Positions 13,064 to 50,884 of a DNA stretch of 53,672 bases are shown piece by piece (position 1 is the first letter of the stretch; each line of letters begins with the position of its first letter). Source of the stretch: a virus; the IMG/VR virus record IMGVR_UViG_3300027734_000094, positions 1 to 53,672 of that record. One strand, 5' to 3'. Both the position numbers and the translations under genes were made by a program. The notes under the pieces are model-generated. The model made no database searches. It was not told the origin of the DNA and worked only from the letters and a program-made list of their open reading frames with translations.

Positions 13064-13142
13064 TAGAACGTCCTCGGAAGTTTGCTCCTTCCATTTCACT
13101 CTCCCAACTCCCCCGCAGCCCCCCGCGCTGCGGGGGTTTTTT
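13064..13142 (+). ncRNA. candidate 3'-UTR-derived antisense RNA
   Basis: This 79-nt stretch follows the last early stop codon and ends in an intrinsic terminator, the usual build of a 3'-UTR-derived small RNA. It contains GTTTGCTCCTT (13080-13090), the exact complement of the leader AAGGAGCAAAC that covers the ribosome binding sites of early genes at 1321, 4758 and 8402. Ten of the 11 positions also match at 4079 and 6736. Whether a stable RNA accumulates is not known; the call rests on complementarity and architecture only. Confidence 0.35.
13110..13142 (+). terminator. intrinsic terminator of the early block
   Basis: CCCCCGCAGC (13110-13119) and GCTGCGGGGG (13127-13136) form a perfect 10-bp stem with a 7-nt loop, followed by TTTTTT (13137-13142). 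It stops rightward transcription. Read leftward there is no U-run, although the late block also ends here (stop at 13141-13143). Confidence 0.93.
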
Positions 13143-19100: not shown

Positions 19101-19614
19101 GCATGAGGGGAACCCCCGCACCTCCCGTAGCAACAGCAGCCCCGATAAATGGAAGCGCAGAGCCGACAAGGTTAGCGGTTGACTCCAACGGCGAGGAAAG
19201 GAAGTTCTGCCCTGCAGCTGCGATCTCCCCCAGCGCGCCCTTACCCTTGGCGGCTTCGCTGCGCGCTGCGTTGATCTTCTCCTGCCCGCGAGATTCCGAA
19301 GAACGCAGATCGTGCGCGTACTGGCTCACATCTTCTAGCGCATTGGACGCGACGTTGCCCGCACCAAAGACATCAGTAAGGGTCTTGCCTACCCCAGTAA
19401 GACCTTCAAACGCCTGAAGGGGGATATCCGCAAGGTACGCTGCTGCGTTACCGACAACACCTGACCGCTCCAGAGCATTCTCAGGCTGCGGTGGGATACC
19501 CGCTTCAGGGAACTTACCTAGGACGTCTGCGACTACCTGCTGTTTGGTCAACCCATCAGGACCGTTAACGCGGTAAATAACGCCGTTCTTACCGGTGATC
19601 TGATAGGTGGGCAT
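13141..19614 (-). CDS. giant polyvalent internal virion protein (2157 aa)
   Basis: At 2157 residues this is the largest gene. The N terminus (MPTYQITGKNGVIYRVNGPDG) is a small strand-rich opening seen on phage injection proteins. Gly/Ala-rich, possibly membrane-active helices follow (about 140-190), then a long charged, coiled, low-complexity part (about 330-850). Around residues 929-934 there is HEGLGH, followed by GLAKLF. In polyvalent phage proteins an HE-xx-GH-xGL motif marks a zincin-like metallopeptidase domain; the His spacing differs from classic HExxH. The C-terminal 900 residues are helical and end in a region like the large polyvalent protein-associated domains. It is probably packaged in the capsid and ejected with the DNA. 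It is the last gene of the late transcript. Confidence 0.85.
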   Translation of the reverse strand: MPTYQITGKNGVIYRVNGPDGLTKQQVVADVLGKFPEAGIPPQPENALERSGVVGNAAAYLADIPLQAFEGLTGVGKTLTDVFGAGNVASNALEDVSQYAHDLRSSESRGQEKINAARSEAAKGKGALGEIAAAGQNFLSSPLESTANLVGSALPFIGAAVATGGAGVPLMLGAASGAGAIKGDIYDAMYRASREHGANEEQATAAATKAQEYGGENLDQIALGTVLGAVASATGLPRQISSAIGRRAAAKVAEAGVEREVVKRSLPRGMVAGAAEEAIPEAIQEGQEQYASNLAQKRAGYDVDLMSGVAGRAAEAGIASLIPGAYGGHREVRAGVAQDVKKELDALPPNATPEVKDAAVERFIQRGFSEEEARTVVKRMAAQKDALARQEEALRQQQEEERAARTAGAEPSPEPDINAPGMPGAEQEFAPPPVDPEEQAAMQQAYEQEAGGAPAQAAPTPVRTVFSPNEADALIRRIGVEPELQSEVEAATGLTLDDLYSIADSGPGPRYSRGRRPKDTETTDMFGALPMQEAPGEAAKREEFNAQRFTSSEEKAALQEQVLQEAQANQERAAALQQREAEQREETLGDIEYALRAQAPENAVYKVDYDPTDTNAPYKLVAETRLGKKPEEVLKAKTLQDFSDQVYGRMMELTPYIPEAPAALEELESPARVEQEAPTVATRMVQSFVSEVDAAREAGQIDNNQRAQLLQRMNRPNAYRMVNGKQVANDAIAKLEKAALDAASTARNASAEEKEAAEAARMEANQRLRAAVKNGLLNPARAALKTMVETRQDEKLGAKQRIGNAAVQERLGRAEGADTKAEKVEARDARIDLKEAKVQKYRRGAAKPARGTPIEQVQALVDNIVSKWKSTNPVTVVKSVADIKDARLRAAIERDGATDARGLVAPDGTVYLIADNIDSIEDVKAVLFHEGLGHVGLAKLFRNNLDGVLTALYRGNANLRAEVDKWRKANSGAYAQDANPLARAVEEVLAERSEVGVLEPTIMQRLATVVRDFARRLGFSLKISDGDVAAILRAAHDMVVDGKQESTAVKGMRYIGATLVPKYARPKTSKPNAKKLKSATEALSKGAQRVKNTFSTAGLNDGMEEMASAHDSSIYQKAVTENIDAISPKFMEGMATAMPTSGLLNWAKSLYSPQFHTALAAVDDYVHKMNSMKNRINEHSDKVARLIRNFVDKYGSAQLATAMFTSRINEVSPDEFATRDEALTNNKVLVEIEKRIVANSNDKALAKRTIAEIKELVAKGKGDLRPKLKALTTTAIDNTKVSAQVEQLTEMTRRIRDTYDAWEKLGEQKNGHKVYLQMREFYKDMFDAELALLDERINSVTDKEQATRIQDMRAKLMREISTPDDAKKSGDIFWDINSDLFAKDYFPLMREGKYWLRVSEDKASGREEEFHTFESVRELQRAQKAVAARLGVDPEKNSGVIKTGYDIAELQDQIKGEDAILQRVFDIVEKARSQTNSTGRTDMDELVGAIYETWLQTTPERSVRRRLMRAKEIAGFSPNVELHFRQQATSYANQLSKLAYAGRIRGAVDIARDIANEKERPTTERAKMGIFVRELEKRANQELKPDPQNAAMNLMNRAAYYYYLTSASTAMFNMTSIPIRVVPRLWRDYGVAKGTAMWVKYMQVWDSLGRVKVNREHTTFGDRIDAIMPNVNGSHFVKSNADLQWAMRAGKERGILDMVTDTLVQNERSVPKVRGTGVKRVVQDTGAVTGKMMSFLFTGTENITRQSAYYMTFELALDKYQKQNPNATEEEARNYALEQAVSVVRDTLGDFSSFERPSLAKGTYTRPLFLFKMHPLLQTKFMVGAIRDMAVGTGAERAGAVKEFSGVMMMAGMFGGLMGMPLYSAMTYAFMAAFGYDDDDDEDVRAMMASDDPRTAYNPDIFFRSWMNDKFGAIEVGGMSLADILTTGPISALTGTETASRTTLDLKNMWFRDAVAGDSMEDTAVQTAIANIAGLSMVAQYLRALDSFKEGDTKGGLTKIAPAFARSWVTAAYNASEGIKNRRGDVLIPKGELTAADSFRDMLGLRSPRLGRIQEYYITRAKNETRIEGERKGILNSIERKAMAGEFKTQDDFRQFWEDNVVPFNRTYPDPEFVISMKTVQESMKSRGKIRARTVEGVQFDKKTAPKDIAAQRRFVQ

Positions 19615-37426: not shown

Positions 37427-38134
37427 TCACCTAAAATACTGGCGCGGTGCAATCCGCAGCGCAGCCTTTTCACGGTCCTCGTTTGCCGCCTGATCCCAAG
37501 CCTCGTCATACATAGCCTTAAGCATCTCTACGCGCGGGAGAGCGTCAGGTAGCTTCATGGAGAGGTGGTAAGCCAGACCGGCCACCATGCACGGCAAAAA
37601 GCGGAACGGGATATCCTGTGTAGCCACGCCGGTACCGGTATCTTGGATACGGCGAAGCCGCCAGTATACGAACGTATAGTAGTTGGACTGCTCCGGCGCG
37701 GGCCACACGTTGATCTGGGGGTTCTTAACCCCCGTAGGAGTGGTCGCACCTGACTGGCGGTTAATCCACACCTGAATAGGACGCCCCTGCGCGTTCTTAT
37801 TCGGGATCGTGGCGTAGGTATCGACGCTAATGCGGTTGATATTGATATCGGTCTGCCCCTGCCCGCTCTGGGTACGGATGACGTGCTCTATGAGGTCGAT
37901 TGTATCGACGGGCAGGTCGTATGTGATCTGACCTTGCACCATGGCAATGCTGCCCTGCTCAACCGTCCAGAGGTTAATACCCCGGTTAGCCCACTCAATC
38001 GTGAGTAGATTGAGACTCCGGCGAGCGGTACGAAAGTCGTAACCAGTCCTAAGCTCGGCACCGCAGCGCTCGAACGCCTCCTCAACCAGCTCGTTGAGAT
38101 TCAGATTGAACGAGGCAGTACCAGTCGTGGTCAT
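37427..38134 (-). CDS. head-tail connector protein (235 aa)
   Basis: A 235-residue protein: NLNELVEEAFERCG, FRTARRSLNLLTIEWANRGINLW, EQGSIAMVQGQITYDLP, and C-terminal helices with FRFLPCMVAGLAYHLSMKLPDALPRVEMLKAMYDEAWDQAANEDRE. This is the usual order in portal-bound adaptors of podoviruses (P22 gp4-type), a helical bundle with a strand core. It ends 3 bp before the zinc-ribbon gene and overlaps the gene before it by 4 bp. Confidence 0.8.
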   Translation of the reverse strand: MTTTGTASFNLNLNELVEEAFERCGAELRTGYDFRTARRSLNLLTIEWANRGINLWTVEQGSIAMVQGQITYDLPVDTIDLIEHVIRTQSGQGQTDININRISVDTYATIPNKNAQGRPIQVWINRQSGATTPTGVKNPQINVWPAPEQSNYYTFVYWRLRRIQDTGTGVATQDIPFRFLPCMVAGLAYHLSMKLPDALPRVEMLKAMYDEAWDQAANEDREKAALRIAPRQYFR

Positions 38135-38529
38135 CTATAACTCGCTGTCTTCTTGGCTATTGTCTTGGGCTGCTTGACGAACTGCTTGCCCGCCTTGGTG
38201 CCCTCACGCTTAGCCTTGGTTGTAGCAGCATATTCGGAAGATGTCAGCGCCTGCCGTGCCTTCTTAGGGAGGTAGCGCTCGCCGGTAGCCTTGGCACCCT
38301 GCGTGGACGGCTTGCCCGACTTGGTGCCCCAGTCCTCCTTGATCCATTTGGACAGGGATTTCTGCGCTTCCGTCTTGGGGCCAGAGTAACCTCCACCAGA
38401 CTTCTTGTACCGCTGGGTCGCAAGTTCAGCCTTGCGAGCGGACCACTGACCCGGCTTTCCACCCTTATCGCTAGCCTTCACACTAGCGACAACACGCTTC
38501 CATTTGCCTTCGTCAGTATGCCCGGCCAC
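38131..38529 (-). CDS. DUF5872-like basic protein (132 aa)
   Basis: A 132-residue basic protein with KGGKPGQWSARKAELATQRYKKSGGGYSG and SLSKWIKEDWGTKSGKPS, which matches the phage/nucleocytoplasmic-virus domain DUF5872. It ends with many Lys/Thr (KQFVKQPKTIAKKTASYR). The start is GTG 38529, with GGGAAG just upstream in the previous gene. It probably binds DNA or a virion component; the family's chemistry is unknown. Confidence 0.75.
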   Translation of the reverse strand: MAGHTDEGKWKRVVASVKASDKGGKPGQWSARKAELATQRYKKSGGGYSGPKTEAQKSLSKWIKEDWGTKSGKPSTQGAKATGERYLPKKARQALTSSEYAATTKAKREGTKAGKQFVKQPKTIAKKTASYR

Positions 38530-38778
38530 TTACTTCCCTTTCTTGAACCCCTTCAGCACCTGCGCGAAGCGGGCACGCTGACCGAGCTTACCGGGAGCCT
38601 TCGCAGCTTTGGCCAGAGCCTTACTCGGAATCTTCTTACCTTCCGGCACGCCCATCTGCTTGTGCAGCGCACCGGGCTTCTTGATGGCCTTGGAGATATC
38701 CAGCTTGCCGCCCTTGGCCATGGCCTTGTTGGGCACCTTGGACTTCTTCATGTCACCCATGCCGCGAGACGCGCGCAT
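38530..38778 (-). CDS. small Lys/Ala-rich protein (82 aa)
   Basis: ATG 38778 shares a base with the upstream stop (TGATG); a GTG six bases earlier is possible. The product is extremely basic, with KSKVPNKAMAKGGKLDISKAIKKPG, then KKIPSKALAKAAKAPGKLGQRAR and FKKGK. It contains the MAKGG element shared by its neighbours. It fits a DNA-condensing or packaged protein. No other feature is seen. Confidence 0.65.
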   Translation of the reverse strand: MRASRGMGDMKKSKVPNKAMAKGGKLDISKAIKKPGALHKQMGVPEGKKIPSKALAKAAKAPGKLGQRARFAQVLKGFKKGK

Positions 38779-39062
38779 CAGCACATACCCCCGCGCTTCA
38801 TGGCAACCTGCTTGCCCTTGGTCTTACCCTTCTTAGCAATACCATCGGCGCGGGATGACACAGAGCCACCAGCAGCGTAGCCCATCTTACCCATAGCGCC
38901 GAGCTTAGGCTTGGGTGCCGGAGCCGCCTTCTTCGGCGTGGGTTCGTAAGGCGTACGGTTACCGCGAGCCACGATAGCCTTATCGCTACCAAGGGTAGCG
39001 CGGTAGGTGTCGATAGGCTTGCGCTTCGACTCCATGAGCGGCTTGGTCTTCTTGTCTACCAT
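38778..39062 (-). CDS. basic protein with diverged tag (94 aa)
   Basis: A 94-residue basic protein with an internal Pro/Lys stretch (PTPKKAAPAPKPKLGAMG), then YAAGGSVSSRADGIAKKGKTKGK, a diverged form of the RADGCATKGKTKGRF tag found on three neighbours, followed by QVAMKRGGMC. It has AAAGGA upstream of the ATG. Unknown function. Confidence 0.65.
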   Translation of the reverse strand: MVDKKTKPLMESKRKPIDTYRATLGSDKAIVARGNRTPYEPTPKKAAPAPKPKLGAMGKMGYAAGGSVSSRADGIAKKGKTKGKQVAMKRGGMC

Positions 39063-39074
39063 CTTGTGTTCCTT

Positions 39075-39809
39075 TCAGCGTGCTTTGGTCTTGCCACGGA
39101 TGGCGCAACCGTCGATGGAGCCACCCTTGGCGAGCTTCTTGGTGGTAAACGCATCAGGGTTATTACGCCATGCAGGCACACCCGCCATATCTTTAGCTTC
39201 CTTATCCTTCTTGGCTGCTGCCTCTGCGGCAACATTACGGCGTTGGCGTAGGCCCTCCAGCGCACCCCTCCTGACCGCCTTAATAGGGGTAGGGGCGGCC
39301 CTCTCTTCCACATAAGAAGAAACGTCCTTCATCCCCGGAGTACGCTTCAAGAAAGAAGGGGCACCCACGCTACCAAACGGGCCAGCATCTTGAGGGGGGT
39401 TCCCACGCACGACAGGAGGGGCACCCTTGGGGGTAGGGGGCGTTCTACGCTCGGCGGGGGCCTTAGCAGCAGGCGCATCGCGCTTGACAGTGGGCTTAGG
39501 AGTAGAACCCGCCATACGGGCTACCTTCTTCTCTCCGCGCCATGTGAAGGTCTCTTTATTCGGATCACGGCCAGCCTTGATCGCTGCCGCACGAGCAGCC
39601 TTGAAGGCGGAACCGAAGCTGCCTGCGTCAGACATACCTTGCTTCGTCTTTGCGCCGATCTTGGAGACGGCTTCGTCCAGACCCTTGTCCAGACGCTTCG
39701 TCGAGTACGCGTGAGGCGAGGCCGAAGAGGGCTTATCGATAGCCATCTGGACACCAGATATACGCGAACCGTACTTCTGCAGGTCTTTATCCTTGAGCTT
39801 ACGTGCCAT
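39075..39809 (-). CDS. Ala/Lys-rich protein with diverged tag (244 aa)
   Basis: The start is ATG 39809, which shares one base with the upstream stop; longer readings would be out of register with the small membrane-protein gene. The protein opens ARKLKDKDLQKYGSRISGVQM, has a basic middle (APAAKAPAERRTPPTPKGAPP) and ends LAKGGSIDGCAIRGKTKAR, a shortened version of the shared C-terminal tag. It is mostly disordered. No catalytic motif is seen. It may be packaged with the genome. Confidence 0.7.
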   Translation of the reverse strand: MARKLKDKDLQKYGSRISGVQMAIDKPSSASPHAYSTKRLDKGLDEAVSKIGAKTKQGMSDAGSFGSAFKAARAAAIKAGRDPNKETFTWRGEKKVARMAGSTPKPTVKRDAPAAKAPAERRTPPTPKGAPPVVRGNPPQDAGPFGSVGAPSFLKRTPGMKDVSSYVEERAAPTPIKAVRRGALEGLRQRRNVAAEAAAKKDKEAKDMAGVPAWRNNPDAFTTKKLAKGGSIDGCAIRGKTKAR

Positions 39810-39982
39810 CACTTCTTCCCCATCCAACGCTGCACAGTCTCCGTCTCGTAGATACGGATAGCCGTCCACACAATCGTGAAGATCGCTGCCACTGCCGGAA
39901 GCACGCTGATCATAGTCCCCAGCACAGTTGCAAACGATAACACGTCTATAGCATATTTTGTGGCTTCATCATGGTCAGTCAT
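39809..39982 (-). CDS. small membrane protein, possible second holin (57 aa)
   Basis: A 57-residue gene; the start ATG 39982 lies 1 bp after the next gene upstream. MTDHDEATKY is followed by a strongly hydrophobic run, SFATVLGTMISVLPAVAAIFTIVWTAIRI, enough for one or two membrane helices, then YETETVQRWMGKK. The closing IVWTxIRIYETxTVQ is seen on small phage membrane proteins often called holins. It lies far from the lysis cassette at 31.7 kb, so it may instead be a pinholin-like or spanin-like partner or a virion membrane protein. Confidence 0.65.
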   Translation of the reverse strand: MTDHDEATKYAIDVLSFATVLGTMISVLPAVAAIFTIVWTAIRIYETETVQRWMGKK

Positions 39983-39983
39983 G

Positions 39984-40244
39984 TCAGCAGTCCCACTTCT
40001 GCAAAGACAATGCCTTACGTGTCGGGCGACCCTTCTCGTCCTTCATAGGACCGGGCATTCCCGACATCCGGGCACAGAAGCTCTTGCGGCGACCCGCAGC
40101 TTTAGGCGACTTCTTGGCCTGCTCCGAGCTTACGGGCGGCTTCAGATTCATACCCTGCTTCTTTGCGGAGGCACGCCCTTTGGCGTTAAGGCCACCCTTA
40201 GGGTTCTTGCCTTCCTTACGAGTCCAAGCCGGAGTTTTTGCCAT
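39984..40244 (-). CDS. DUF6321-like protein (86 aa)
   Basis: An 86-residue basic protein with AWTRKEGKNPKGGLNAKGRASAKKQGMNLKPPV, then RRKSFCARMSGMPGPM and a terminal WDC. These are the marks of DUF6321, a small domain frequent in uncultured aquatic phages. Its two cysteines and many Lys/Arg may bind nucleic acid. Its start overlaps the upstream stop (TAATG) and it directly follows the tagged gene cluster. Confidence 0.75.
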   Translation of the reverse strand: MAKTPAWTRKEGKNPKGGLNAKGRASAKKQGMNLKPPVSSEQAKKSPKAAGRRKSFCARMSGMPGPMKDEKGRPTRKALSLQKWDC

Positions 40245-40340
40245 TACACGAACCTCCCCTTGGTCTTACCCTTGGTAGCGCAGCCATCAGCGCGCGACGA
40301 GGCCGAGCCGCCCTTAGCCATCTTCTTGGCCTTGGCTTTG
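40240..40340 (-). repeat. 101-bp perfect repeat, copy A (tag cassette)
   Basis: Identical over 101 bp to 40970-41070. It encodes the C-terminal tag of the 40244-40552 gene (KAKKMAKGGSASSRADG onward) and crosses the TAATG junction into the next gene's first codons. A third, shorter copy (55 bp) lies at 40549-40603. Confidence 0.97.
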
Positions 40341-40552
40341 CCGCCACGCTTCATACCGTCACCTGAGTCGGACACCACAGTATCGCCCTTGGCTGCTTTA
40401 GCGGCTTTACGGCGTTTCTCATCCGCCGTGTCGGTTTCACCGATAACATGCATAAGTGGACTGATCTTGCGTAGGTTGCCGAACATGCCTTCGCCGCTGG
40501 CCATACCGTAGACTGGGGAAATAGACCCGAGAATCTTGTCGAGCTTAGCCAT
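40244..40552 (-). CDS. tagged Lys-rich protein A (102 aa)
   Basis: A 102-residue protein. The unique N-terminal half (LDKILGSISPVYGMASGEGM, then ISPLMHVIGETDTADEKRRKAAKAAKGD) is followed by a Lys-rich linker and the tag KMAKGGSASSRADGCATKGK, then TKGRFV. The tag DNA is identical to that of the gene at 40974-41414. Start and stop are each shared with neighbours through TAATG. It is probably a virion component; the shared tag suggests a common targeting or binding role. Confidence 0.7.
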   Translation of the reverse strand: MAKLDKILGSISPVYGMASGEGMFGNLRKISPLMHVIGETDTADEKRRKAAKAAKGDTVVSDSGDGMKRGGKAKAKKMAKGGSASSRADGCATKGKTKGRFV

Positions 40553-40603
40553 TACACGAACCTCCCCTTGGTCTTACCCTTGGTAGCGCAGCCATCAGCG
40601 CGC
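40549..40603 (-). repeat. 55-bp perfect repeat, copy B (tag cassette)
   Basis: Identical over 55 bp to 40240-40294 and 40970-41024. It covers the end of the tag (RADGCATKGKTKGRFV) of the 40552-40974 gene and the TAATG junction. Confidence 0.95.
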
Positions 40604-40974
40604 TTGGAGGCAGAAGAGACCGAGCCGCCCTTAGCATAACCACGAGTTTTGTAGCTCTCGATAAGGCGCTTACGGCCTTCCCCCGAGTCTTTCAGCACCC
40701 GAGCCTTAAGACGCTTTGCAGCGGCGGCGCTATGCTTGATGCTCTTACTAGTTGGGAAATCGCCCATAGTATCATACGCATCTTCGCTGCTTTTAACCTT
40801 ATTCGCTTTATCGCCGTAGTAGCTAGCAGCCATAGACTGAGACTTCTGCAGGGCATGGTCTGCAGTATCAACCTTATCCCAGAACGACTTGCTATCCTTC
40901 TGCATAGCACGGTAATAGTTTTTCTCGTAGGGGCCAGTTTCCGTGAGTTTATCAGCGTTATTCTTCTTAGCCAT
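40552..40974 (-). CDS. tagged Lys-rich protein B (140 aa)
   Basis: A 140-residue protein whose N-terminal 110 residues are helical and basic (YEKNYYRAMQKDSKSFWDKVDTADHAL, HSAAAAKRLKARVLKDSGEGRKRLIE). The end is GGSVSSASKRADGCATKGKT, then KGRFV; the tag carries an extra ASK insertion relative to its neighbours. It shares TAATG with both adjacent genes. Nothing suggests catalysis. The unrelated N-terminal parts of the tagged genes argue for the tag being a moveable module. Confidence 0.7.
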   Translation of the reverse strand: MAKKNNADKLTETGPYEKNYYRAMQKDSKSFWDKVDTADHALQKSQSMAASYYGDKANKVKSSEDAYDTMGDFPTSKSIKHSAAAAKRLKARVLKDSGEGRKRLIESYKTRGYAKGGSVSSASKRADGCATKGKTKGRFV

Positions 40975-41070
40975 TACACGAACCTCCCCTTGGTCTTACC
41001 CTTGGTAGCGCAGCCATCAGCGCGCGACGAGGCCGAGCCGCCCTTAGCCATCTTCTTGGCCTTGGCTTTG
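40970..41070 (-). repeat. 101-bp perfect repeat, copy C (tag cassette)
   Basis: Identical to 40240-40340. It encodes the C-terminal tag of the 40974-41414 gene and the first codons of the 40552-40974 gene. Confidence 0.97.
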
Positions 41071-41414
41071 GCTTTGACCTTGCCACCTTCAGCAAAACGG
41101 AAACTAAGTCTGGCACCGACACCACCCGGTGCGTACGGGCCGGGAGCCCCTGAACCAGCAAACTGCACTGCAGAAGGCATCTGAGCCGGGCTAATCCCGC
41201 CAAAAGTGAGCTTGGGGCCGGTAATGGGTTTGCCAGCCGGGCCTCTGGAGGAGGTAATACCCCCCTTCATGTCATCTGCGGCCCTGCTAGACCTCATCTT
41301 AGACAGATCAAACTGAGACGGGCTAATCCCACCCTGAGGAGCCATAACCGTCATAGGTGCACCGGCTGTAGTAGGCCCGCCATCAGCAAAGCGCTTCATC
41401 TTCCTAGCCATCAT
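40974..41414 (-). CDS. tagged protein C (146 aa)
   Basis: A 146-residue protein. The N terminus (ARKMKRFADGGPTTAGAPM) is followed by Pro/Gly/Ser-rich segments with two similar pieces (GGISPSQFDLSKM and GGISPAQMPSAVQF), then a Lys/Ala linker and the tag ASSRADGCATKGKTKGRFV. AAAGGAGG precedes the doubled ATG (41414/41411), which overlaps the glycosyltransferase stop. No enzymatic motif is visible; the repeated GGISP motif hints at a short internal duplication. Confidence 0.7.
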   Translation of the reverse strand: MMARKMKRFADGGPTTAGAPMTVMAPQGGISPSQFDLSKMRSSRAADDMKGGITSSRGPAGKPITGPKLTFGGISPAQMPSAVQFAGSGAPGPYAPGGVGARLSFRFAEGGKVKAKAKAKKMAKGGSASSRADGCATKGKTKGRFV

Positions 41415-42148
41415 GCAACCTCCTTTGCAGCGGGAGCAATCATCGGGTAGAGGGCGTCCCTACCGAAGTCACCTTCATACTCTTGCACGCCCATATGGCC
41501 GAGCTTGATGGCCGGGTCGATCCAGACTTCGAAACCGTGCTCGCGGGCGCGGTCACAGAAGAGATAATCCTCCCCGATATACCCCTCGTCGGTCTTCATG
41601 AAATCGAACATACAGGGGATACTACGGTTGGAGCGCGTATCCTCGTAACGCCATTCGGGGTGGGCAGCGTCCAGCGTCTCAAACACATCGCGGCGTACAA
41701 GCATGAACGCTGTAGCTACACGTTTGGCGCGGACGAGGCCCATACCGTTCATGGTCAACTCGTTGTTCTCGTCATAGTCCAACGTAGCAATATAGGTCTT
41801 AACCTCACTACGCGTGCGGGGCACACCTGCGACAATACCCTTCTTAGGGTCAGCGCCCCAAGCCATGAGGCGGAAGATATCATCCGGCTCAAAGTTGATG
41901 TCGCTATCGATGAACATCAGGTAGTCGCAGTTAGACTCCAGCATATCCTGAGCAAGCAGGTTGCGGGCACGGCTGACCACCGAGCACCCGCAGATGGAGC
42001 CAATCTGAATGTCGATCCCGTGCTGCATTGCCCGCGTTGCAAAGCGCGTCAACGAAATAGCCAGCTTCAAGGAGACCTTGAAGTCATAGGCCGGAAGAGC
42101 GAAAAAGATGCTCTTTCCGGCTAGATCGTAACTGCGTTGAGCCTGCAT
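41411..42148 (-). CDS. GT-A-fold glycosyltransferase
   Basis: A 245-residue enzyme. FFALPAYDFKVSLKLAISL opens the domain, SRARNLLAQDMLESNCDYLMFIDSDINFEPDDI carries the nucleotide-sugar/metal DxD (Asp81, Asp83), and later IGEDYLFCDRAREHGFEVWIDPAIKLGHMG gives the acceptor-site acid and terminal His. It resembles GT2-like enzymes encoded within phage head gene clusters. It may glycosylate capsid or tail proteins, or host surface glycans; the acceptor is unknown. GGGTGAT precedes the ATG. Confidence 0.88.
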   Translation of the reverse strand: MQAQRSYDLAGKSIFFALPAYDFKVSLKLAISLTRFATRAMQHGIDIQIGSICGCSVVSRARNLLAQDMLESNCDYLMFIDSDINFEPDDIFRLMAWGADPKKGIVAGVPRTRSEVKTYIATLDYDENNELTMNGMGLVRAKRVATAFMLVRRDVFETLDAAHPEWRYEDTRSNRSIPCMFDFMKTDEGYIGEDYLFCDRAREHGFEVWIDPAIKLGHMGVQEYEGDFGRDALYPMIAPAAKEVA

Positions 42149-42456: not shown

Positions 42457-42822
42457 TTACGCTGCGCCAAACACCAGAACGCTATAGGACGCAGCTGCGG
42501 GGTCAACTGCCAACGCCGTGATATTGGTGGCGCGGATCGTGACCGTGTTGGCCGCTGAGACGAACGCGTTGAAGATGATACCCGCAGCGGGAGCAGCGGG
42601 AAGGGCCATAGAGACTTCGTCCCCAACAGCTGCGCCGGTAACCGTGATGGTCAGGTCTGCCTGCGCAGCGGCAGCAATAGAAGGAAAGTTAAGAGAAGCT
42701 GAAGCGGTACGCAGTTTGGTAAGCGTAGCGCCAGTAGTCTCGGTACCTGTAGTCTCGTCGATCGTGACGATCTGGAAGCCGTTCTGTGAACGTACGGGAC
42801 CGCTGAAAGTCGTGTTAGCCAT
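42457..42822 (-). CDS. head decoration-type protein (121 aa)
   Basis: The start is ATG 42822 with GGAG upstream. The 121 residues open ANTTFSGPVRSQNGFQIVTI, then Ala/Thr-rich strands (ASASLNFPSIAAAAQADLTITVTGAAVGD) and AFVSAANTVTIRATN. It looks like a capsid decoration protein of the kind that follows major capsid genes. It is the first gene after the internal terminator. Confidence 0.7.
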   Translation of the reverse strand: MANTTFSGPVRSQNGFQIVTIDETTGTETTGATLTKLRTASASLNFPSIAAAAQADLTITVTGAAVGDEVSMALPAAPAAGIIFNAFVSAANTVTIRATNITALAVDPAAASYSVLVFGAA

Positions 42823-42934
42823 CGAATATCTCCGTGTAGCAGCACATTCCCACACCGTCTCTGCTACGTCTGCTAGGTCAGTCGGTGCGGGATAGATTCC
42901 TAGTTAAGTAGGTGTATCACTTCTGCAGGCATAA
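42823..42934 (-). other. non-coding gap after the capsid terminator
   Basis: About 110 bp without a gene. Read leftward it follows the terminator at 42935-42961 and ends with the GGAG ribosome binding site of the decoration gene. I see no confident promoter, so genes downstream probably depend on read-through. Confidence 0.5.
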
Positions 42935-42974: not shown

Positions 42975-43886
42975 TTAGGCAGCGCCTTCGGAACCGTACA
43001 TGCCCAGCGGGTCAGACCAGCCGAACGAGTAACGTTCACGGGCCTTGTAGCGAACGTTGCCGGTATCGAAGTCACCGTCCATCGAGTTCGACATGGGAGT
43101 ACGAACGAAATGCTTCAGGCCGTTCGGCACATCGGTGGTGAGGAACCACGCGTCCGTATCGGTCAGGAAGTGGTTGACGGCGTAGCCTTCGGGGATCGAC
43201 CCGTTCGACTTCAGGGCGTTGATGTCGTTGTCCGCAGTCGAGACGCGAAGTTCGGTCTCAAGCAGGCGGGTGGCGACGAACATCAGGCTCGGCGGGATGA
43301 CCAGCTTCTTCGGCTTCGCAGCGATAAGCAGACCACGTTCATCCGTCCACGCCGCAATCTGAATGACCGCCGCTTCAAGCGACGTTTCGTTCAGATCGGC
43401 GGCAGTGCTCGGGATGTTCGAGTTGACGCCACCAGAGACGAGCGGGTGCGTAGCCGAGAACAGCGGCTTGCCGTCGCCACCGAGGTAGTCGGTGTCGAAG
43501 CCGTTATTCAGGATAGCCGCAGCCTTGGTCTGCTTGGTGTACGCCATGGCGCGAGCCAGAGCCTTCGTGTACCGCGACGACAGCGAGTCGTAGAGGTTGT
43601 CTTCAATGGCCTCTTCCGTGAGCGAGAACCCGAGGGCAATCGTCTCATGGTTGTAGCGAGCCGTGTAGACTTCCTGACCGTTGTCGTAGGCGATGGCACT
43701 GCCTTCGTTCTTAACCGGAGCAGCCGAGAAGCCCGACAGCTTGGTTTCTTCTTCGAACGAACGCTCGGAAGTCTCCGTCTCGAAGATTTCCTTATGCTCT
43801 TCGCCGTAGCGGGCGTATTCCAGACCGAACAGGGCGTTCAGGCCGGGCAGGAGCTCCTTGAGAAGCTGTGCGCGTGAAATTGCCAT
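42975..43886 (-). CDS. major capsid protein (HK97 fold, Mu gpT-like)
   Basis: A 303-residue capsid protein: SERSFEEETKLSGFSAAPVKNEGSAIAYDNGQEVYTARYNHETIALGFSLTEEAIEDNLYDSL, a long spine helix with KALARAMAYTKQTKAAAILN, and GKPLFSATHPLVSGG, the characteristic loop of Mu gpT-like coats. No delta-domain protease gene was seen. The scaffold is a separate gene upstream. AAGGAG precedes the ATG; a strong terminator follows, consistent with high expression. Confidence 0.9.
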   Translation of the reverse strand: MAISRAQLLKELLPGLNALFGLEYARYGEEHKEIFETETSERSFEEETKLSGFSAAPVKNEGSAIAYDNGQEVYTARYNHETIALGFSLTEEAIEDNLYDSLSSRYTKALARAMAYTKQTKAAAILNNGFDTDYLGGDGKPLFSATHPLVSGGVNSNIPSTAADLNETSLEAAVIQIAAWTDERGLLIAAKPKKLVIPPSLMFVATRLLETELRVSTADNDINALKSNGSIPEGYAVNHFLTDTDAWFLTTDVPNGLKHFVRTPMSNSMDGDFDTGNVRYKARERYSFGWSDPLGMYGSEGAA

Positions 43887-44996: not shown

Positions 44997-45932
44997 TTAG
45001 TTCTCCATCTTCATAAGTTCACGAGCATACTGCTCGGGAGTGAGACCCAGCTTCTTCGCAATGGTAAGCTGAGACTGCTTGAGCACGATCTTCTTGGGGG
45101 ACCGGCTACGAGAAGCGGGAGCGACGACAGATGCAGCGGGCTTGGTTTCGCGCGGTTGAGCCGCTTCTTCCCCGAAGTAGTCGGGGAAACGACGACGCAT
45201 CGTTTTGTCGATGTTCGTCCAGTATTCGTCGGTGCCCGCATACTGCGGACCACGTTCGTTGATGAGCTTCTGGTGAAGCCCAAGAGCCGACGCAGTCATC
45301 TCCGGGTCTGAGCCGTACCACGTATTGCGCTCTTGCCACGCAATAGTCTTCTGGTCGGGACGCGGAGCCTGTACCGGCTGTGTAGGCTGTTCTACCTCAA
45401 CTTCAGGGGTCTGTAAAGTAGGGCGGTAAGAATTGAGCTGCTGCGCCCTGTAAGACGCTGCATTCAACTTCTCCTGAGCATCAATAAGCTTATCCGAGTC
45501 ACCAGACTCATAGGCTTCGCGGTACGCGCGCTTGGCCATTTCGAGCTCATACTCGGTGTTCTGCTTGTAGCTGTTAAGAAGATGCTGTTCGCCCTGAGAC
45601 AGGTTAGTCTTGAGCAGACGGTTTTCTTCCAGCAGCCGCTGGGCGGCGCTAAGAGCTTCAGTCTGTTCGCGCTGGAGACGCTCCTTCTCGCGGCGCTCGT
45701 CGTGCCAGACCTTCTTCATCTGCTTGAGACGGGTCTTGACCTTCTCGGAGTACTCTTCGAGCTCGTCATTCTCCAGCTCTTCGACGACCTCCTTGGGCAT
45801 GGGCTCGCGCCCGCGATCTGCCTCGGGGGTATCGTCTTCAATCTCGATATCAGGCTTATTGCTATCAGGAACAGGGGTGTTCTCGTCCTCGATCTCGAAC
45901 GAAAAGTCATCATCGGGCTGAGTAGCCATCAT
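44997..45932 (-). CDS. scaffold protein
   Basis: A 311-residue acidic protein. The N-terminal 60 residues are strongly acidic and disordered (EIEDENTPVPDS, ELENDELEEYSEKV). A long coiled coil follows (about 62-160, RLKQMKKVWHDERREKERLQREQTEALSAAQRLLEENRLLKTNL-type). The C terminus has Pro-rich linker and PKKIVLKQSQLTIAKKLGLTPEQYARELMKME, a basic-helical capsid-binding tail. This is the standard plan of podovirus scaffolds. It has AAAGGAG upstream. Confidence 0.85.
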   Translation of the reverse strand: MMATQPDDDFSFEIEDENTPVPDSNKPDIEIEDDTPEADRGREPMPKEVVEELENDELEEYSEKVKTRLKQMKKVWHDERREKERLQREQTEALSAAQRLLEENRLLKTNLSQGEQHLLNSYKQNTEYELEMAKRAYREAYESGDSDKLIDAQEKLNAASYRAQQLNSYRPTLQTPEVEVEQPTQPVQAPRPDQKTIAWQERNTWYGSDPEMTASALGLHQKLINERGPQYAGTDEYWTNIDKTMRRRFPDYFGEEAAQPRETKPAASVVAPASRSRSPKKIVLKQSQLTIAKKLGLTPEQYARELMKMEN

Positions 45933-46400: not shown

Positions 46401-46584
46401 TATTCTCCATCCTCTGCGCCGTCTCTGCGAACAGAGTGTTAGCGATCATAAGCCCACGGACGATGCCGCAAGCGTACTTGTAGTCCCCATGATCCTTGGC
46501 GGTACCGCGAGCGAGGTCGTCGCTCATGACGGTGATCTCCTCTTGGACCTTACCGGACAGGTACTTCAGTAGTTCCGTACTCAT
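46387..46584 (-). CDS. small helical protein (65 aa)
   Basis: A 65-residue protein (LLKYLSGKVQEEITVMSDDLARGTAKDHGDYKYACGIVRGLMIANTLFAETAQRM) that is probably all helical. The pattern GTAKDHGDYKYACGIVRGL is conserved in small proteins next to portal genes. It overlaps the portal stop by 4 bp (ATGA) and the GroES-like gene by 14 bp. Unknown function. Confidence 0.7.
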   Translation of the reverse strand: MSTELLKYLSGKVQEEITVMSDDLARGTAKDHGDYKYACGIVRGLMIANTLFAETAQRMENNDDD

Positions 46585-49073
46585 TTAGTCTCCTCTGGCT
46601 TGCTTGCGGGAACAGGGGGTTCCTTGGCGAGGTTCTGCATACCCATTGAAGCTTCCTTGGCGACTTGGACGCCAATACGAAGCCCTTCGAGTTCTTGTTT
46701 GGCCGAGAGATTAGCCTTGTCCGTGGCGACCTTGGCACCGACCTGAAGACCTGCGATCTCCTTCTGGGCCGCGATCCGCTTCTCTTCGAGCTCGATCCGG
46801 TCGTTCTTCTCCGCAGCGTCGATCATCAGCTTCCGCTCCTTGATATCGACTTCCTTCTGCTTGATCTCCAGCTCCTTCATCTGCATCTGGACGAGCGGGT
46901 CCTGAGCCATCTGCTGGTTCTGCTGCTGCTGAGCCTCAGCCTGATCCTTCTGCAGAAGCTGCTGCGAAGCCTGAGCGGCAAGGCGCGACACCGCGATCTC
47001 AACATCCTCGCTCATCTCGGCACCGGGCGGCGGCAGCGGCACGCCAGCTTGTTCCTCGATCTGCTTGCGGTACGCGAAGGCCAGATGCTCCTGAAGGTGG
47101 GCCATGCCAGCGGCCATTATAGTCTGTGCGTTGGGGTTCTGACCCATCATCTGCTGCATCTTGGGGTCTTGGGCCATCGCCATATGGACTGCGATATGCG
47201 CCTCGTGGTCTTGGTAGATAAACGCCTTGACCGGCTTGCCATTGAGCAGGTCCATGTTCTCCGACACCGGGTCGCGCGGCTTCATGTCGTCGTTGTCCTT
47301 GAGCGGGACAAGCTTCTGCGCGTTCTTGATGCCGAGCACCTCCAGCATCTGCCTATGCAGGTACGGCAGGTCATAAATCTGCGGAGCACCCTGCGCGAGC
47401 TGGATCACTGCCTGATACTGGACGATCTTCTGCGCCATAGTGGCAGCATTGGGGTCCGATACCGGCATGATATCGACGCTGTCGTAGTCCGACTTCTTGG
47501 CCTTGCGGCCACCTTCCTCAGGCTCGTAGCTGTACTCAGCGGGGGTGTAATCCCGGATAATACCCTTCAGGAGCTTGAACTCCTGCCGCATCGAATAATG
47601 GATGCGTGCCTGCACAGCTGACATGAGCTTGAGCGTGCGCTCTAGGATAGCTAGGGTCGTACCCACCGGGGCCTGCGCCGACATGTCGGACACCTGCAGG
47701 TCAGCGGCACCCGCGAACTTGCGCCCCTCCTCGATGATGGTCTGGAGGAGCTGGAACAGGGTCTGCGACGGCTCCTTGTACGGCAGCGGCATGATATTGT
47801 CGCGCATCGAGCCCGAAGCCACGTCCACGTCACGCCACTCGGCGGGAGCGATGGGAGTGTCGTCACCCTTGACCCGCAGACCCTTGGTCTTGAAGCCGCC
47901 CGGCAGGTTGCTCAGCGTACCTGCATCGACGAGCTGGCGCAGGATGGACGTGCCCGACTTAGCAAAGGCCCCCACGAGGTGGATGAGGCCGAAGGCATAG
48001 AAGCCGAACCCCGGCACGTACGAGTAGTGTACGAAGTGGTTGCGCTTCGCTTTCTTCTCGTCCTCCGGGTCCCAGTTACGACGGATAGCGAGGACCTCCT
48101 CACTCTCCTTATCGATGGTCACGATATAAGGCAGCGCGATGTCGCCGTCGTCCTTGTCGCGGAACTTGTCATCCTCAATAATGAGGTCAACCTGCATCTC
48201 AAGCAGCTTGTACCGGTCGTCGGTCTCGGCGCGGAAGCCCATCTTCTCCGCGATCTTCTTCTCGACCTCGTCCATGGTATTGGTAGGCTCGGGAAGATCG
48301 ACATCACGGTAGAAACCGCCGCGCTGCAGCTTCTTCATCTCGTTCTTGGTCTTGCGCAGCACGTGCGTGACACGCTCAGCCGACTCAAGGTTAGACGCAC
48401 CATAAGGGACAATGACGTCCTCAGCGGGCACGTACATCGACACCTGACGTCCCATACTGGGGTCGTAATACACCTTCTTGAACGCATTGCCTGACAGCCC
48501 GAGCCCCCAGAGCATCCGCTCATGTTCCGGACGGTACTCCACCATGCGCTCAGTGAGCTGGTAGTTCATGTCGTCCTGCACGCGGACAGCCGCCTCGCGC
48601 TTCGCAGGTGTCTCCTTACCGATGATCTGCGTCTTCACCGGGCCAGCAGCGGGGAACGTCTCCGTGATGGTCTCGGCTTGGAACTTGACCAGTGCTTCAC
48701 TCAGGAGGGGATGGTACACACCGCAAGCACCGGGCCACGGCTCAGTGCGGTCATCGACCTTCATCCCAAGGAGCTCAAGGCCATCGACGTAAGTCTGAAT
48801 CCAGTCCTTACGGCTATTAATATCCTCCTCGTAGTCACCTAGCAGGTCGCCAACCAGCTCGGTCAGCACGCCTTCATCGAGCGTTTCAGCGAGATTGCTG
48901 TTAAACTCCTCTTCCCCGGCTTTAGCCGCGTCGGATTCCTCCTCATCGCCCTCGCCAAGGTCGATCTCAATCTCGAAGTTCTCATCAGGCATGTTCACGC
49001 CCGCCTGAACACCATCTGCCATCGAAGCATCGAGGCCCAACGGGGCTCGGTTAAGGGCTTTATCTACGGCCAT
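46581..49073 (-). CDS. portal protein
   Basis: An 830-residue portal. The N terminus is acidic (about 30-70), then DWIQTYVDGLELLGMKVDDRTEPWPGACGVYHPLLSEALVKFQAETITETFPA, GLSGNAFKKVYYDPSMGRQVSMYVPAEDVIVPYGASNLESAERVTH, a long stem-like helical region, and a Gln-rich tail (about 700-770, QLLQKDQAEAQQQQNQQMAQ). This is the P22/p19-like large portal plan. The C-terminal helical barrel residues are Lys/Glu-rich. It lies 7 kb downstream of the HNH gene with terminase in between. Confidence 0.92.
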   Translation of the reverse strand: MAVDKALNRAPLGLDASMADGVQAGVNMPDENFEIEIDLGEGDEEESDAAKAGEEEFNSNLAETLDEGVLTELVGDLLGDYEEDINSRKDWIQTYVDGLELLGMKVDDRTEPWPGACGVYHPLLSEALVKFQAETITETFPAAGPVKTQIIGKETPAKREAAVRVQDDMNYQLTERMVEYRPEHERMLWGLGLSGNAFKKVYYDPSMGRQVSMYVPAEDVIVPYGASNLESAERVTHVLRKTKNEMKKLQRGGFYRDVDLPEPTNTMDEVEKKIAEKMGFRAETDDRYKLLEMQVDLIIEDDKFRDKDDGDIALPYIVTIDKESEEVLAIRRNWDPEDEKKAKRNHFVHYSYVPGFGFYAFGLIHLVGAFAKSGTSILRQLVDAGTLSNLPGGFKTKGLRVKGDDTPIAPAEWRDVDVASGSMRDNIMPLPYKEPSQTLFQLLQTIIEEGRKFAGAADLQVSDMSAQAPVGTTLAILERTLKLMSAVQARIHYSMRQEFKLLKGIIRDYTPAEYSYEPEEGGRKAKKSDYDSVDIMPVSDPNAATMAQKIVQYQAVIQLAQGAPQIYDLPYLHRQMLEVLGIKNAQKLVPLKDNDDMKPRDPVSENMDLLNGKPVKAFIYQDHEAHIAVHMAMAQDPKMQQMMGQNPNAQTIMAAGMAHLQEHLAFAYRKQIEEQAGVPLPPPGAEMSEDVEIAVSRLAAQASQQLLQKDQAEAQQQQNQQMAQDPLVQMQMKELEIKQKEVDIKERKLMIDAAEKNDRIELEEKRIAAQKEIAGLQVGAKVATDKANLSAKQELEGLRIGVQVAKEASMGMQNLAKEPPVPASKPEETK

Positions 49074-49355
49074 TTACTTAACTTTCCTCTTGGCGCGGGT
49101 AGCGCGCTTCACGGTCTTAGCGACGGCAAGCACGGGGGTAGCGACCTCAACAACTTCAGCCACCGTCTCGACTGCGTCTTCGAACACATCAAAGATGTTT
49201 TTCTTCTTGGTCAGCTCCAACCCATTCGCGTAATTGACTGCTTCCGGGAACGGCACACCTGCGGCTCGTGCCTCGTTGAACGCAATCTTCTGTTCGTCGC
49301 GCCACTTGCGCCACTGAGTCTTGCCAATCGGGAACAGTGCTTTGACCTCAGACAT
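49074..49355 (-). CDS. small protein between terminase and portal (93 aa)
   Basis: A 93-residue protein: N-terminal FPIGKTQWRKWRDEQKIAFNEARAAGVPFPEAVNYANGL, a Val/Ala-rich middle (VAEVVEVATPVLAVAKTVK), and a basic end (RATRAKRKVK). Position suggests a packaging accessory. It overlaps the terminase stop by one base and ends just before the portal start. No known family recognised. Confidence 0.65.
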   Translation of the reverse strand: MSEVKALFPIGKTQWRKWRDEQKIAFNEARAAGVPFPEAVNYANGLELTKKKNIFDVFEDAVETVAEVVEVATPVLAVAKTVKRATRAKRKVK

Positions 49356-50884
49356 CAGTAATACCCCCTGTTGCGGTTTGACTTGAAATACACTGGTTCG
49401 TCGGGCTCGTCGAGGTTGGTAGTGACGTAACCACCTTTGCGGAAGCGATGCATGGCCATAGATACGCTATCTACGTAGTCGTCATGGCTACCGGCAGGGA
49501 ACTCAGCGACCTCATCAACCACTTCTTCGGCCCACCGAGTAGCAGGTGCCCATACCCGTCCAGACGCAAACAAGTCTGCGACAGCATTCAAACGGGAAAT
49601 CTTGTCGTTGCCACGTGTAGGCGTAAACTCCTGAACCGGTATACCCATCGCTCTCATCTCGTAGATCAAAGGCGCACCGGAAGCCTTCTTCTCGATGATC
49701 ACACTGTCCGGTTCCCACTCGCGGTACTCCTCGATGGCTACCTGCTTAAGAGTCGGGAACTCCATACGGTCCCTAAAGGCGTTCAGGAGGATGATATTGG
49801 CCTGATCTGTGCCGTTGTTGTCCGGGTGGTAGAACACTCCCCACGTCGTGCAGGCGCTATAGTCCGCACGTTGGCTCTTCTCGAAGGCCGTATCCCAGCT
49901 CTGGAGGATGAAATCGCACTGTGGAGCCCGATCAGACTCCCACTCACGCCACCACTCGCGCTTCACGATGGCGGCTGACTCAGAAACTGGGTTCTGCTGG
50001 TACTGCGCCTGCCATTTACTGTTCGGGACGTCTCTTTTGACCTTCAGAAGCTCGTCGAGCGACCAAAACTCGGGCCAAAGCGGCTTTTCTGACGGTAGAA
50101 TGGCCGGAAACTCAATCACCTCCCACTCGTCTAGGCTGCCATTCACAGCTGCGTCCTTCATAATTTGGCCGCACAGATCACGCTTTGCCCACCTAGTGGC
50201 AACGATTACAATAGCCCCACCCGGCTGCAAACGCTGACGAGGCCCAGAAGTGTACCACTCGTAGGTCTTGTCGTAGATATCCGGGTTTACTTCCGCGAGT
50301 GCGGCTTCCTGTTCGGAGTGCGGGTCGTCAATGATGAGTAGGTCCGCACCTTTACCGGTAACGGCACCGCCAACACCGATAGCGAAATAGTCGCCCTGCT
50401 TATTGGTGTTCCACCGTCCCGCTGCCTTGCTGTCTGATGCAAGGACAAGATCAGGAAAAATCGCCTTGTACGCGTCCGTATCGACAAGGTTACGGACTTT
50501 ACGCCCGAAGCCGACCGCCAGCTCAGCCGTATGGGAGCACTGGATGACCTTCTTGTGCGGAGAATTGCCAAGGAACCAAGCAGGTAGCAGGTAAGAAGCA
50601 AACTCGGACTTGGTATGGCGAGGAGGCATATTAATGATGAGGCGTTTGCACTCGCCGCGAGCCACCCTCTCAAACGCATCGGCCATCTTGGCATGGTGCC
50701 TCCCCGCAATGAACGACGGCCATACTTCCTGTACGAACTTAATGAACCGCTTCTTACTCAGGTCACGCCGCTTGAGCTCTGTCAGCTTCTCCAGCTCGGC
50801 AAGCAGCAGCTCCTGCTCGTGCAGAGGCAGCTTATGCAGGATTTTTGGGATATCCTTAAGGCTGACGTCAGCGAGAGTGACCAT
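49355..50884 (-). CDS. terL: terminase large subunit
   Basis: A 509-residue packaging motor. The N-terminal ATPase has a variant Walker A (MPPRHTKS, residues 86-93) and Walker B LLIIDDPHSE (182-191), with the coupling VATRW at about 228. The C-terminal nuclease carries Asp331 (SWDTAF), then a second acidic site near the end (HDDYVDSVSMAM). These fit the terminase family that makes headful or cos-type cuts. It would drive DNA into the portal with the small subunit upstream. Its start overlaps the preceding stop (TGATG type). No intein or HNH insertion is seen. Confidence 0.95.
   Translation of the reverse strand: MVTLADVSLKDIPKILHKLPLHEQELLLAELEKLTELKRRDLSKKRFIKFVQEVWPSFIAGRHHAKMADAFERVARGECKRLIINMPPRHTKSEFASYLLPAWFLGNSPHKKVIQCSHTAELAVGFGRKVRNLVDTDAYKAIFPDLVLASDSKAAGRWNTNKQGDYFAIGVGGAVTGKGADLLIIDDPHSEQEAALAEVNPDIYDKTYEWYTSGPRQRLQPGGAIVIVATRWAKRDLCGQIMKDAAVNGSLDEWEVIEFPAILPSEKPLWPEFWSLDELLKVKRDVPNSKWQAQYQQNPVSESAAIVKREWWREWESDRAPQCDFILQSWDTAFEKSQRADYSACTTWGVFYHPDNNGTDQANIILLNAFRDRMEFPTLKQVAIEEYREWEPDSVIIEKKASGAPLIYEMRAMGIPVQEFTPTRGNDKISRLNAVADLFASGRVWAPATRWAEEVVDEVAEFPAGSHDDYVDSVSMAMHRFRKGGYVTTNLDEPDEPVYFKSNRNRGYY

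Follow-up and report, generated by a model that had tools for sequence, protein, structure and literature searches.

The virus record IMGVR_UViG_3300027734_000094 (IMG/VR) raises the question of why neighbouring small genes with otherwise unrelated products end in one and the same peptide. The window analysed here is this whole record of 53,672 bases. A sequence-only reading of it had claimed that the unrelated neighbouring proteins encoded at 40244-41414 share one C-terminal tag. Our comparison confirmed this: three tandem genes (T1, T2 and T3; Table 1) encode different bodies followed by the common peptide RADGCATKGKTKGRFV, an ending that can be written for all three as GGSxSSxRADGCATKGKTKGRFV before the stop codon. 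A profile search of the record with the tag gave matches at exactly five places (T1-T5), and comparison of the five motif-bearing bodies in all pairs revealed no mutual similarity (best E = 0.59). The tag DNA of T1 (40970-41070) and that of T3 (40240-40340) are identical over exactly 101 bp, as had been read. The copy in T2, to which a length of 55 bp (40549-40603) had been given, is present and slightly longer, with 60 bp in common with the T1 copy (40544-40603 and 40966-41025) and 56 bp in common with the T3 copy (40548-40603 and 40240-40295). The TAATG overlap of stop and start codons lies inside every one of the three copies. Two further genes had been thought to end in diverged tags; this holds for T4, whose variant tag is terminal, but not for T5, in which KQVAMKRGGMC and the stop codon come after the motif. 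Searches of Pfam and PHROGs with the five motif-bearing window proteins gave no family match.

Is the tag a protein module or a stretch of copied DNA? A degenerate DNA pattern for DGxAxxGKTKG matched at least 119 stretches in IMG/VR; here and below, all counts are samples, taken among the matches listed. A stop codon followed 148 of the 149 in-frame matches, and the Asp was placed exactly 14 residues from the end in 68 of these 148. The next commonest distances, 21-24 residues, define a subterminal form, to which most of the other pattern matches belong. In four loci (L026, L030, L085 and L118), a small protein beginning with MAFTKSADGIAxxGKTKGKNLGDSGP carries DGxAxxGKTKG near its N-terminus, and its gene lies just downstream of the adaptor and znf-like genes. 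The fetched loci contained 386 distinct genes ending in the tag, and 345 distinct C-terminal 30-mers gave the consensus (K)GGxxSSASxRADG[C/I]AxxGKTKG[R/K]x[V/C/I]. Synonymous variation within the tag is saturated: the invariant Gly, Ala and Thr residues use all four codons (for Gly(-4), counted from the C-terminus, GGA 148, GGG 100, GGT 76 and GGC 62 among the 386 tags), indicating that selection acts on the peptide. The ratio of nonsynonymous to synonymous variation (pN/pS) is 0.24 for the tag and 0.31 for the bodies having homologs (224 pairs in 41 families). The last 22 residues have a mean charge of +4.8. AlphaFold predicted no fold for 79 tag sequences, with a predicted local distance difference test (pLDDT) score of 61, in keeping with a peptide that would be ordered only on a partner.

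The DNA identity within the window is exceptional. Only 1 of 209 within-phage pairs of tag copies, the T1-T3 pair, was at least 97% identical over the last 60 nt, as were 0 of 5000 random between-phage pairs; the perfect pair therefore marks a recent duplication or conversion, as the sequence-only reading had argued, and not the usual state. Perfect DNA cassettes as a general feature did not hold up, since elsewhere the tag is kept by protein selection and its codons diverge. Homogenisation by gene conversion was likewise rejected as the general cause of tag identity, with within-phage pairs averaging 68.0% and random between-phage pairs 62.2% over the last 60 nt. The within-phage excess of synonymous identity (0.49 versus 0.41) was not used, because shared codon usage or relatedness could cause it.

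The tag is restricted to a single phage clade and a single genomic interval, that between the major capsid protein gene and the tail-adaptor gene, and its recurrence at this same position in many other phage contigs shows that it is not a chance match. The pattern alone fetched 118 loci in which the motif is terminal or nearly so; homologs of the head-to-adaptor genes of the window are present in 117 of them, and the remaining locus is only 1,061 bp long. In loci fetched by the tag pattern alone, the strictly C-terminal tag comes after the capsid-side genes in 54/54 and before the adaptor in 72/72. We assembled 132 complete capsid-adaptor intervals, of which 36 were first fetched by the tag pattern, 59 via tagged proteins, 28 by the capsid anchor and 8 as named phages, the window being the last one; L362, a ninth named record that has this capsid family, is absent from the distinct intervals. 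Gene calls in the intervals were mechanical, and some of the longer N-termini probably reflect mis-set starts. The 28 capsid-anchored intervals, like the 8 of named phages, were chosen blind to the tag; the 28 came, through the capsid protein, from 80 capsid loci, the rest of which gave no new distinct complete interval. The tag was found in 26 of these 28, with the C-terminal form in 22 and the subterminal form in 20. Where the capsid protein is at least 70% identical to that of the window, 104 of 106 intervals (most of them fetched through the tag) carry the tag; below 65% identity, it is found in 0 of 7, all named records.

Among the named phages examined, the tag was seen only in the Pag-Yong1, MinM2 and Pra-JY27 group, where it ends a gene between the 'minor capsid protein' and portal-adaptor genes; the group has a single tagged protein (UMO75986.1, C-terminal residues RFI). 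A hand-composed tag variant gave only weak matches in named phages, and the match in this group is a true C-terminal tag; another weak match lay in a Mycobacterium phage. Two weak profile matches in the Caulobacter phages RW and GB2A (E 8.7e-4), which contain a stop, were treated as chance. The tag profile also matched each of 28 other large virus records one to five times, clustered within a few kilobases. In a collection of 84,980 bacterial and archaeal species, 23 stretches fitted the pattern, and real tags were present only in five metagenome-assembled contigs; four of these also have this phage type's capsid or adaptor genes. The fifth (L383, from a Patulibacter metagenome bin), in which the tag stands at the contig end, in frame with an acyltransferase-like membrane protein (named by eye) and followed by a further phage-like start, is probably a chimeric assembly.

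The sequence-only reading expected the tag in other N-terminal contexts elsewhere in phages, and these were found: 354 tagged proteins fell into 162 groups by body similarity, 115 of them singletons. Comparison of 103 tagged representatives with Pfam found DUF6321 in two and one marginal match (cwf18, E 0.0045), and comparison with PHROGs gave 15 families, each in at most two members and none of them frequent in the set. An ADP-ribosyltransferase-like body suspected by eye (L234:7553-8164, also a 218-aa frame in L369) had no Pfam match even at E = 1, and we make no claim for it. T4 and a homolog (L087:755-1435) have in common a stretch F..AF..AR...G...F.W.G, which is present too in the second-largest group of tagged bodies and may be another recurring module of tagged proteins. 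The bodies contain 19.5% lysine plus arginine (K+R), are net positive in 368 of 375 cases and have a disorder-type composition. Across the 132 intervals, 163 tagged bodies had a median of one homolog in other intervals, and 46% had none. By comparison, 861 untagged genes of the same intervals had a median of 37 homologs (11% none), and the 436 untagged genes with K+R of at least 15% a median of 75 (7% none). Purifying selection acts on those bodies for which homologs exist, as the pN/pS of 0.31 indicates; these are therefore real genes that are replaced rather than merely drifting.

Homologs of the DUF6321 protein show the graft directly: 12 of 176 have the tag at their end, and 164 are without it. 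A nucleotide comparison with 16 chosen relatives revealed that homology stops 3-10 bp inside T1 in 12/12 of those having the glycosyltransferase-like block, and that past the T1 body the same relatives are mostly 72-90% identical over the tag and junction. Most bodies in these relatives are unlike those of the window, and the T3 bodies align in several. In all, ten homologs of the T3 body were found, eight with the C-terminal tag, one with the subterminal form and one with a GHTKG variant. The number of cassettes varies between the window and its relatives. Of 38 intervals, 22 have one to three tagged genes in the stretch from the glycosyltransferase-like gene to the DUF6321 gene and 16 have none; in 19 of those 22, nothing besides tagged genes is present there. 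This stretch is a cassette array.

The end of the tag is also biased towards the ribosome-binding site of the next gene, a feature that, like the confinement to one clade and one interval, the sequence-only reading had missed. In the window, the tag DNA ends in AAG GGG AGG TTC GTG TAATG, in which GGGAGG, formed by the Gly-Arg codons, stands 8 nt before the next ATG. A stop codon overlapping an ATG (TAATG or TGATG) was seen in 197 of the 386 tags in one count, and in 198 in the set used for codon bias. In these 198 tags, GGA or GGG is used 148 times at Gly(-4), 7 times at Gly(-8) and 15 times at Gly(-13), and an AGR codon is used in 59/126 cases at Arg(-3) versus 4/185 at Arg(-16) (Gly and Arg biases, p = 2e-54 and 4e-23, not corrected for relatedness). 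With one tag per locus, the codon bias persists at 107/149 versus 7/149, and in the capsid-anchored loci alone at 22/25 versus 1/25. A strict four-letter Shine-Dalgarno match precedes the ATG in 87 of the 198 tags versus 254 of 1980 control stretches. To judge from these codons, peptide, ribosome-binding site and start codon seem to be combined in the one module.

What, then, would such a module do? The reading we favour, at about even odds (a probability near 0.5), is that the genes are portable body-tag cassettes in which small, basic, disordered proteins are sent into the virion by their C-terminal tag, and that recombination between tags swaps the bodies. Virion loading is suggested by the place of the genes in the head module, their restriction to phages with this capsid, the fixed C-terminal peptide and the small, basic, disorder-type bodies. 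Of the roles that the sequence-only reading had proposed for the tag, a virion-sorting signal is fitted by the late structural position of one C-terminal module on many unrelated small Lys-rich proteins, whereas a proteolytic role is unsupported. The strictly C-terminal peptide of about 22 residues would probably bind a constant head partner, such as the capsid shell, the acidic scaffold or the portal, and would thereby carry its small, basic, disordered cargo into the virion; the cargo may be ejected together with the DNA. With its last Gly-Arg/Lys codons acting as a Shine-Dalgarno-like sequence and its stop often overlapping the next ATG, a body flanked by two tags would form a ready-made translated and tagged cassette. 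Homologous recombination between tags could then insert, delete or swap whole bodies, and an arms race with hosts may drive their turnover. A bolder form, which we hold only tentatively, is a dedicated virion-cargo cassette array that joins loading peptide, ribosome-binding site and next start codon in one DNA module. A new body would then be at once expressed, tagged, packed and delivered to the next host, at an evolvable locus for injected, possibly counter-defence, proteins that is rebuilt by inter-tag recombination.

If virion loading is true, then in a widespread phage clade the small genes that follow the capsid gene and lack annotation would have an address label in the tag. Delivered proteins could be found by sequence alone, and foreign proteins could perhaps be packed into phage heads with the peptide as a portable handle. 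A targeting peptide overlapping the next gene's ribosome-binding site would be one DNA stretch selected at two levels and a recombination joint for cassette exchange as well.

Several observations weigh against this picture. No tagged protein is known from a virion, and no proteomics was found for any of these phages. The tag is absent from 2 of the 28 tag-blind intervals, and the AlphaFold prediction suggested no binding site. The motif is also found subterminally and, in the four loci named above, near the N-terminus, so recognition of a free C-terminus is not the whole story. No separate prohead protease gene was recognised by Pfam or PHROGs in the scanned head genes of the window, which are part of the record's genes, and T4-style cleavage is unsupported. 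The purine bias at Gly(-4) occurs as well at 100 of 188 junctions without overlap, and 11 of the 18 tags that have no ATG in the next 33 nt show it, so it is not strictly tied to the following gene. The charge of the tag, finally, would also fit plain nucleic-acid binding.

That last point underlies the strongest competing explanation, in which tag and basic bodies would be histone-like polycations on DNA (or RNA) in or around the head and the tag a DNA-binding peptide instead of an address label. We consider this possible, if doubtful: the Lys and Arg content and net charge of the bodies, the charge of the last 22 residues and the further small basic genes flanking the tagged ones are what it predicts, but charge alone leaves the conserved D(-14), G, A, G and T and the exact distance to the C-terminus unexplained, and the equally basic neighbours are without the tag and are conserved rather than replaced. 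The tagged proteins might instead decorate or complete the outside of the head, as capsid-surface or neck proteins held by the tag and variable because they face the environment or the host surface. The location of the genes between capsid or cement and tail adaptor and their high turnover would suit such a role; strongly basic, disorder-type bodies are unusual for decoration proteins, however, so we judge it unlikely. Less probable still is that the tag acts as a signal inside the host cell, in protein turnover, localisation or partner binding, its bearers being small proteins of early infection or host takeover whose genes lie by chance among structural ones, for although the small, diverse, fast-changing bodies resemble accessory proteins, their position is fixed inside the head module in all informative loci and restricted to one capsid clade. 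Least credible is a mere translation device, an operon junction (ribosome-binding site plus overlapping start) conserved with a peptide of little function of its own, because the purine-biased last codons and the TAATG/TGATG overlaps from which it draws support involve a Shine-Dalgarno-like element of only about three codons, while residues -16 to -6 show protein-level conservation and unrestricted synonymous change and 18 tags exist without an ATG in the following 33 nt.

Table 1. Positions of the tagged genes, tag copies, ribosome-binding-site-like elements and surrounding genes in the 53,672-base window (aa, amino acids)
Feature	Positions	Strand	Description	Matches or homologs
Terminase	49355-50884	-		
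Portal	46581-49073	-		
Acidic protein	44997-45932	-	311 aa, upstream of capsid gene; scaffold-like by composition and place	
Major capsid protein	42975-43886	-		
Probable cement protein	42457-42855	-		By position relative to DSL-LC04 and Pag-Yong1
Glycosyltransferase-like gene	41411-42148	-	Left boundary of cassette array	
T1	40974-41414	-	Tagged gene, 146 aa; first of three tandem body-tag cassettes	No homolog of body among loci compared
T1 tag	40977-41042	-	C-terminal, 22 aa, GGSASSRADGCATKGKTKGRFV	
GGGAGG element	40983-40988	-	Shine-Dalgarno-like, in tag codons, 8 nt before T2 start	
T2	40552-40974	-	Tagged gene, 140 aa; second cassette	One homologous body (L203)
T2 tag	40555-40620	-	C-terminal, variant with SSASKRADGC	
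GGGAGG element	40561-40566	-	Before T3 start codon	
T3	40244-40552	-	Tagged gene, 102 aa; third cassette	Body recurs in other phages
T3 tag	40247-40312	-	C-terminal, DNA same as T1 tag	
GGGAGG element	40253-40258	-	Before start codon of DUF6321 gene	
DUF6321 protein	39984-40244	-	86 aa, untagged in window	PF19846, 1.6e-25
57-aa protein	39809-39982	-	Hydrophobic stretch; conserved untagged neighbour	67 homologs
T4	39075-39809	-	244 aa; variant tag GGSIDGCAIRGKTKAR before stop	
T5	38778-39062	-	94 aa; subterminal ('class B') motif SRADGIAKKGKTKGKQVAMKRGGMC before stop	
84-aa protein	38530-38784	-	Basic; conserved untagged neighbour	60 homologs
132-aa protein	38131-38529	-	Basic	phrog_14910; weak DUF5872
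Tail adaptor homolog	37427-38134	-	Right boundary of interval	Relatives annotated 'Pam1 adaptor protein' or 'portal-adaptor'

The genomic surroundings are those of a head module, with terminase, portal, acidic scaffold-like protein, major capsid protein, a small-gene cluster and the tail-adaptor homolog following one another on the (-) strand. The window's capsid protein matches the capsid part of fused protease-capsid PHROGs. The scaffold-like protein has a net charge of -15, with -20 in its first 60 residues, and would suit a basic tag as partner, a match that is only suggestive. In many relatives too, a glycosyltransferase-like gene is part of the head module and immediately precedes the cassette array. 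Elsewhere in the window, most of a 2157-aa protein (13141-19614) matches a PHROG named DarB-like antirestriction; to go by this match, the protein would be a large, possibly injected one related to defence.

Open-access literature on the motif strings, DUF6321 and Pag-Yong1 yielded nothing relevant, most subscription papers lying outside its coverage, so comparison has to be made with systems of similar design. Encapsulins have an HK97-fold shell, into which unrelated cargo is directed by short cargo-loading peptides at its C-terminus. The tag resembles them by description only, being short, C-terminal and present on unrelated proteins; encapsulins package without DNA, and a phage head with a scaffold is a different assembly. 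Closer at hand is DUF6321 (PF19846) of marine and cyanobacterial phages, a domain that is also short, basic and carried by small phage proteins, and that in the window is encoded within the same interval as the tag. It differs from the tag in sequence and in occurring in several phage groups instead of one clade, and the tag can be added behind it: none of the tagged window proteins matches PF19846, and in the two matching proteins among the 103 tagged representatives the DUF6321 part lies upstream of the tag. Of 50,697 phage records, 505 contain DUF6321. In phrog_3477, phrog_10346 and phrog_727, profiles 450-928 positions long, the domain matches the C-terminal end, so that it may itself have been grafted there as a module.

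A constant terminal module on bodies of very different length is likewise formed by the N-terminal MPSTSKKQ... sequence (first 42 positions of phrog_22033 and phrog_25121, 'virion structural protein'), which differs from the tag in being N-terminal, unrelated in sequence, widespread in phages and absent from the window. This 42-residue module, MPSTSKKQ..FM.AVAHNPAFAKKVGVPQSVG, is common to motif-bearing proteins of the clade (L049:5655-5996, L269:2261-2629, L272:3930-4418 and others) and to jumbo-phage proteins annotated as structural, namely phiKZ PHIKZ165.1 (L364), 121Q gp51 (L390) and PHA46 (L391). Proteins with the subterminal form of the motif often begin with it, the structural label being an annotation and not proof.

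The nearest parallel is found in phage T4. The passages on T-even internal proteins in PMC3012670 and PMC9026906 describe diverse proteins sharing only a conserved targeting sequence, and the T4 set (IPI, IPII, IPIII and Alt, with an N-terminal capsid targeting sequence) likewise comprises several small basic proteins with diverse, poorly conserved bodies and one short terminal sequence, the arrangement found here on the 354 tagged proteins. According to an experimental evolution study of phage T4 (PMC9391042), gene amplification is driven by short homologies, and one of the host-range factors that it names is the gene of an internal protein. Unlike the T4 targeting sequence, the tag is C-terminal, has another sequence and includes the start signal of the next gene in its DNA; it shows no sign of cleavage and may differ in this respect as well. 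Given the opposite end, the different sequence and the lack of a recognised protease gene in the scanned head genes, the tag is not a member of the T4 type; by analogy, it would work as T4 capsid targeting does.

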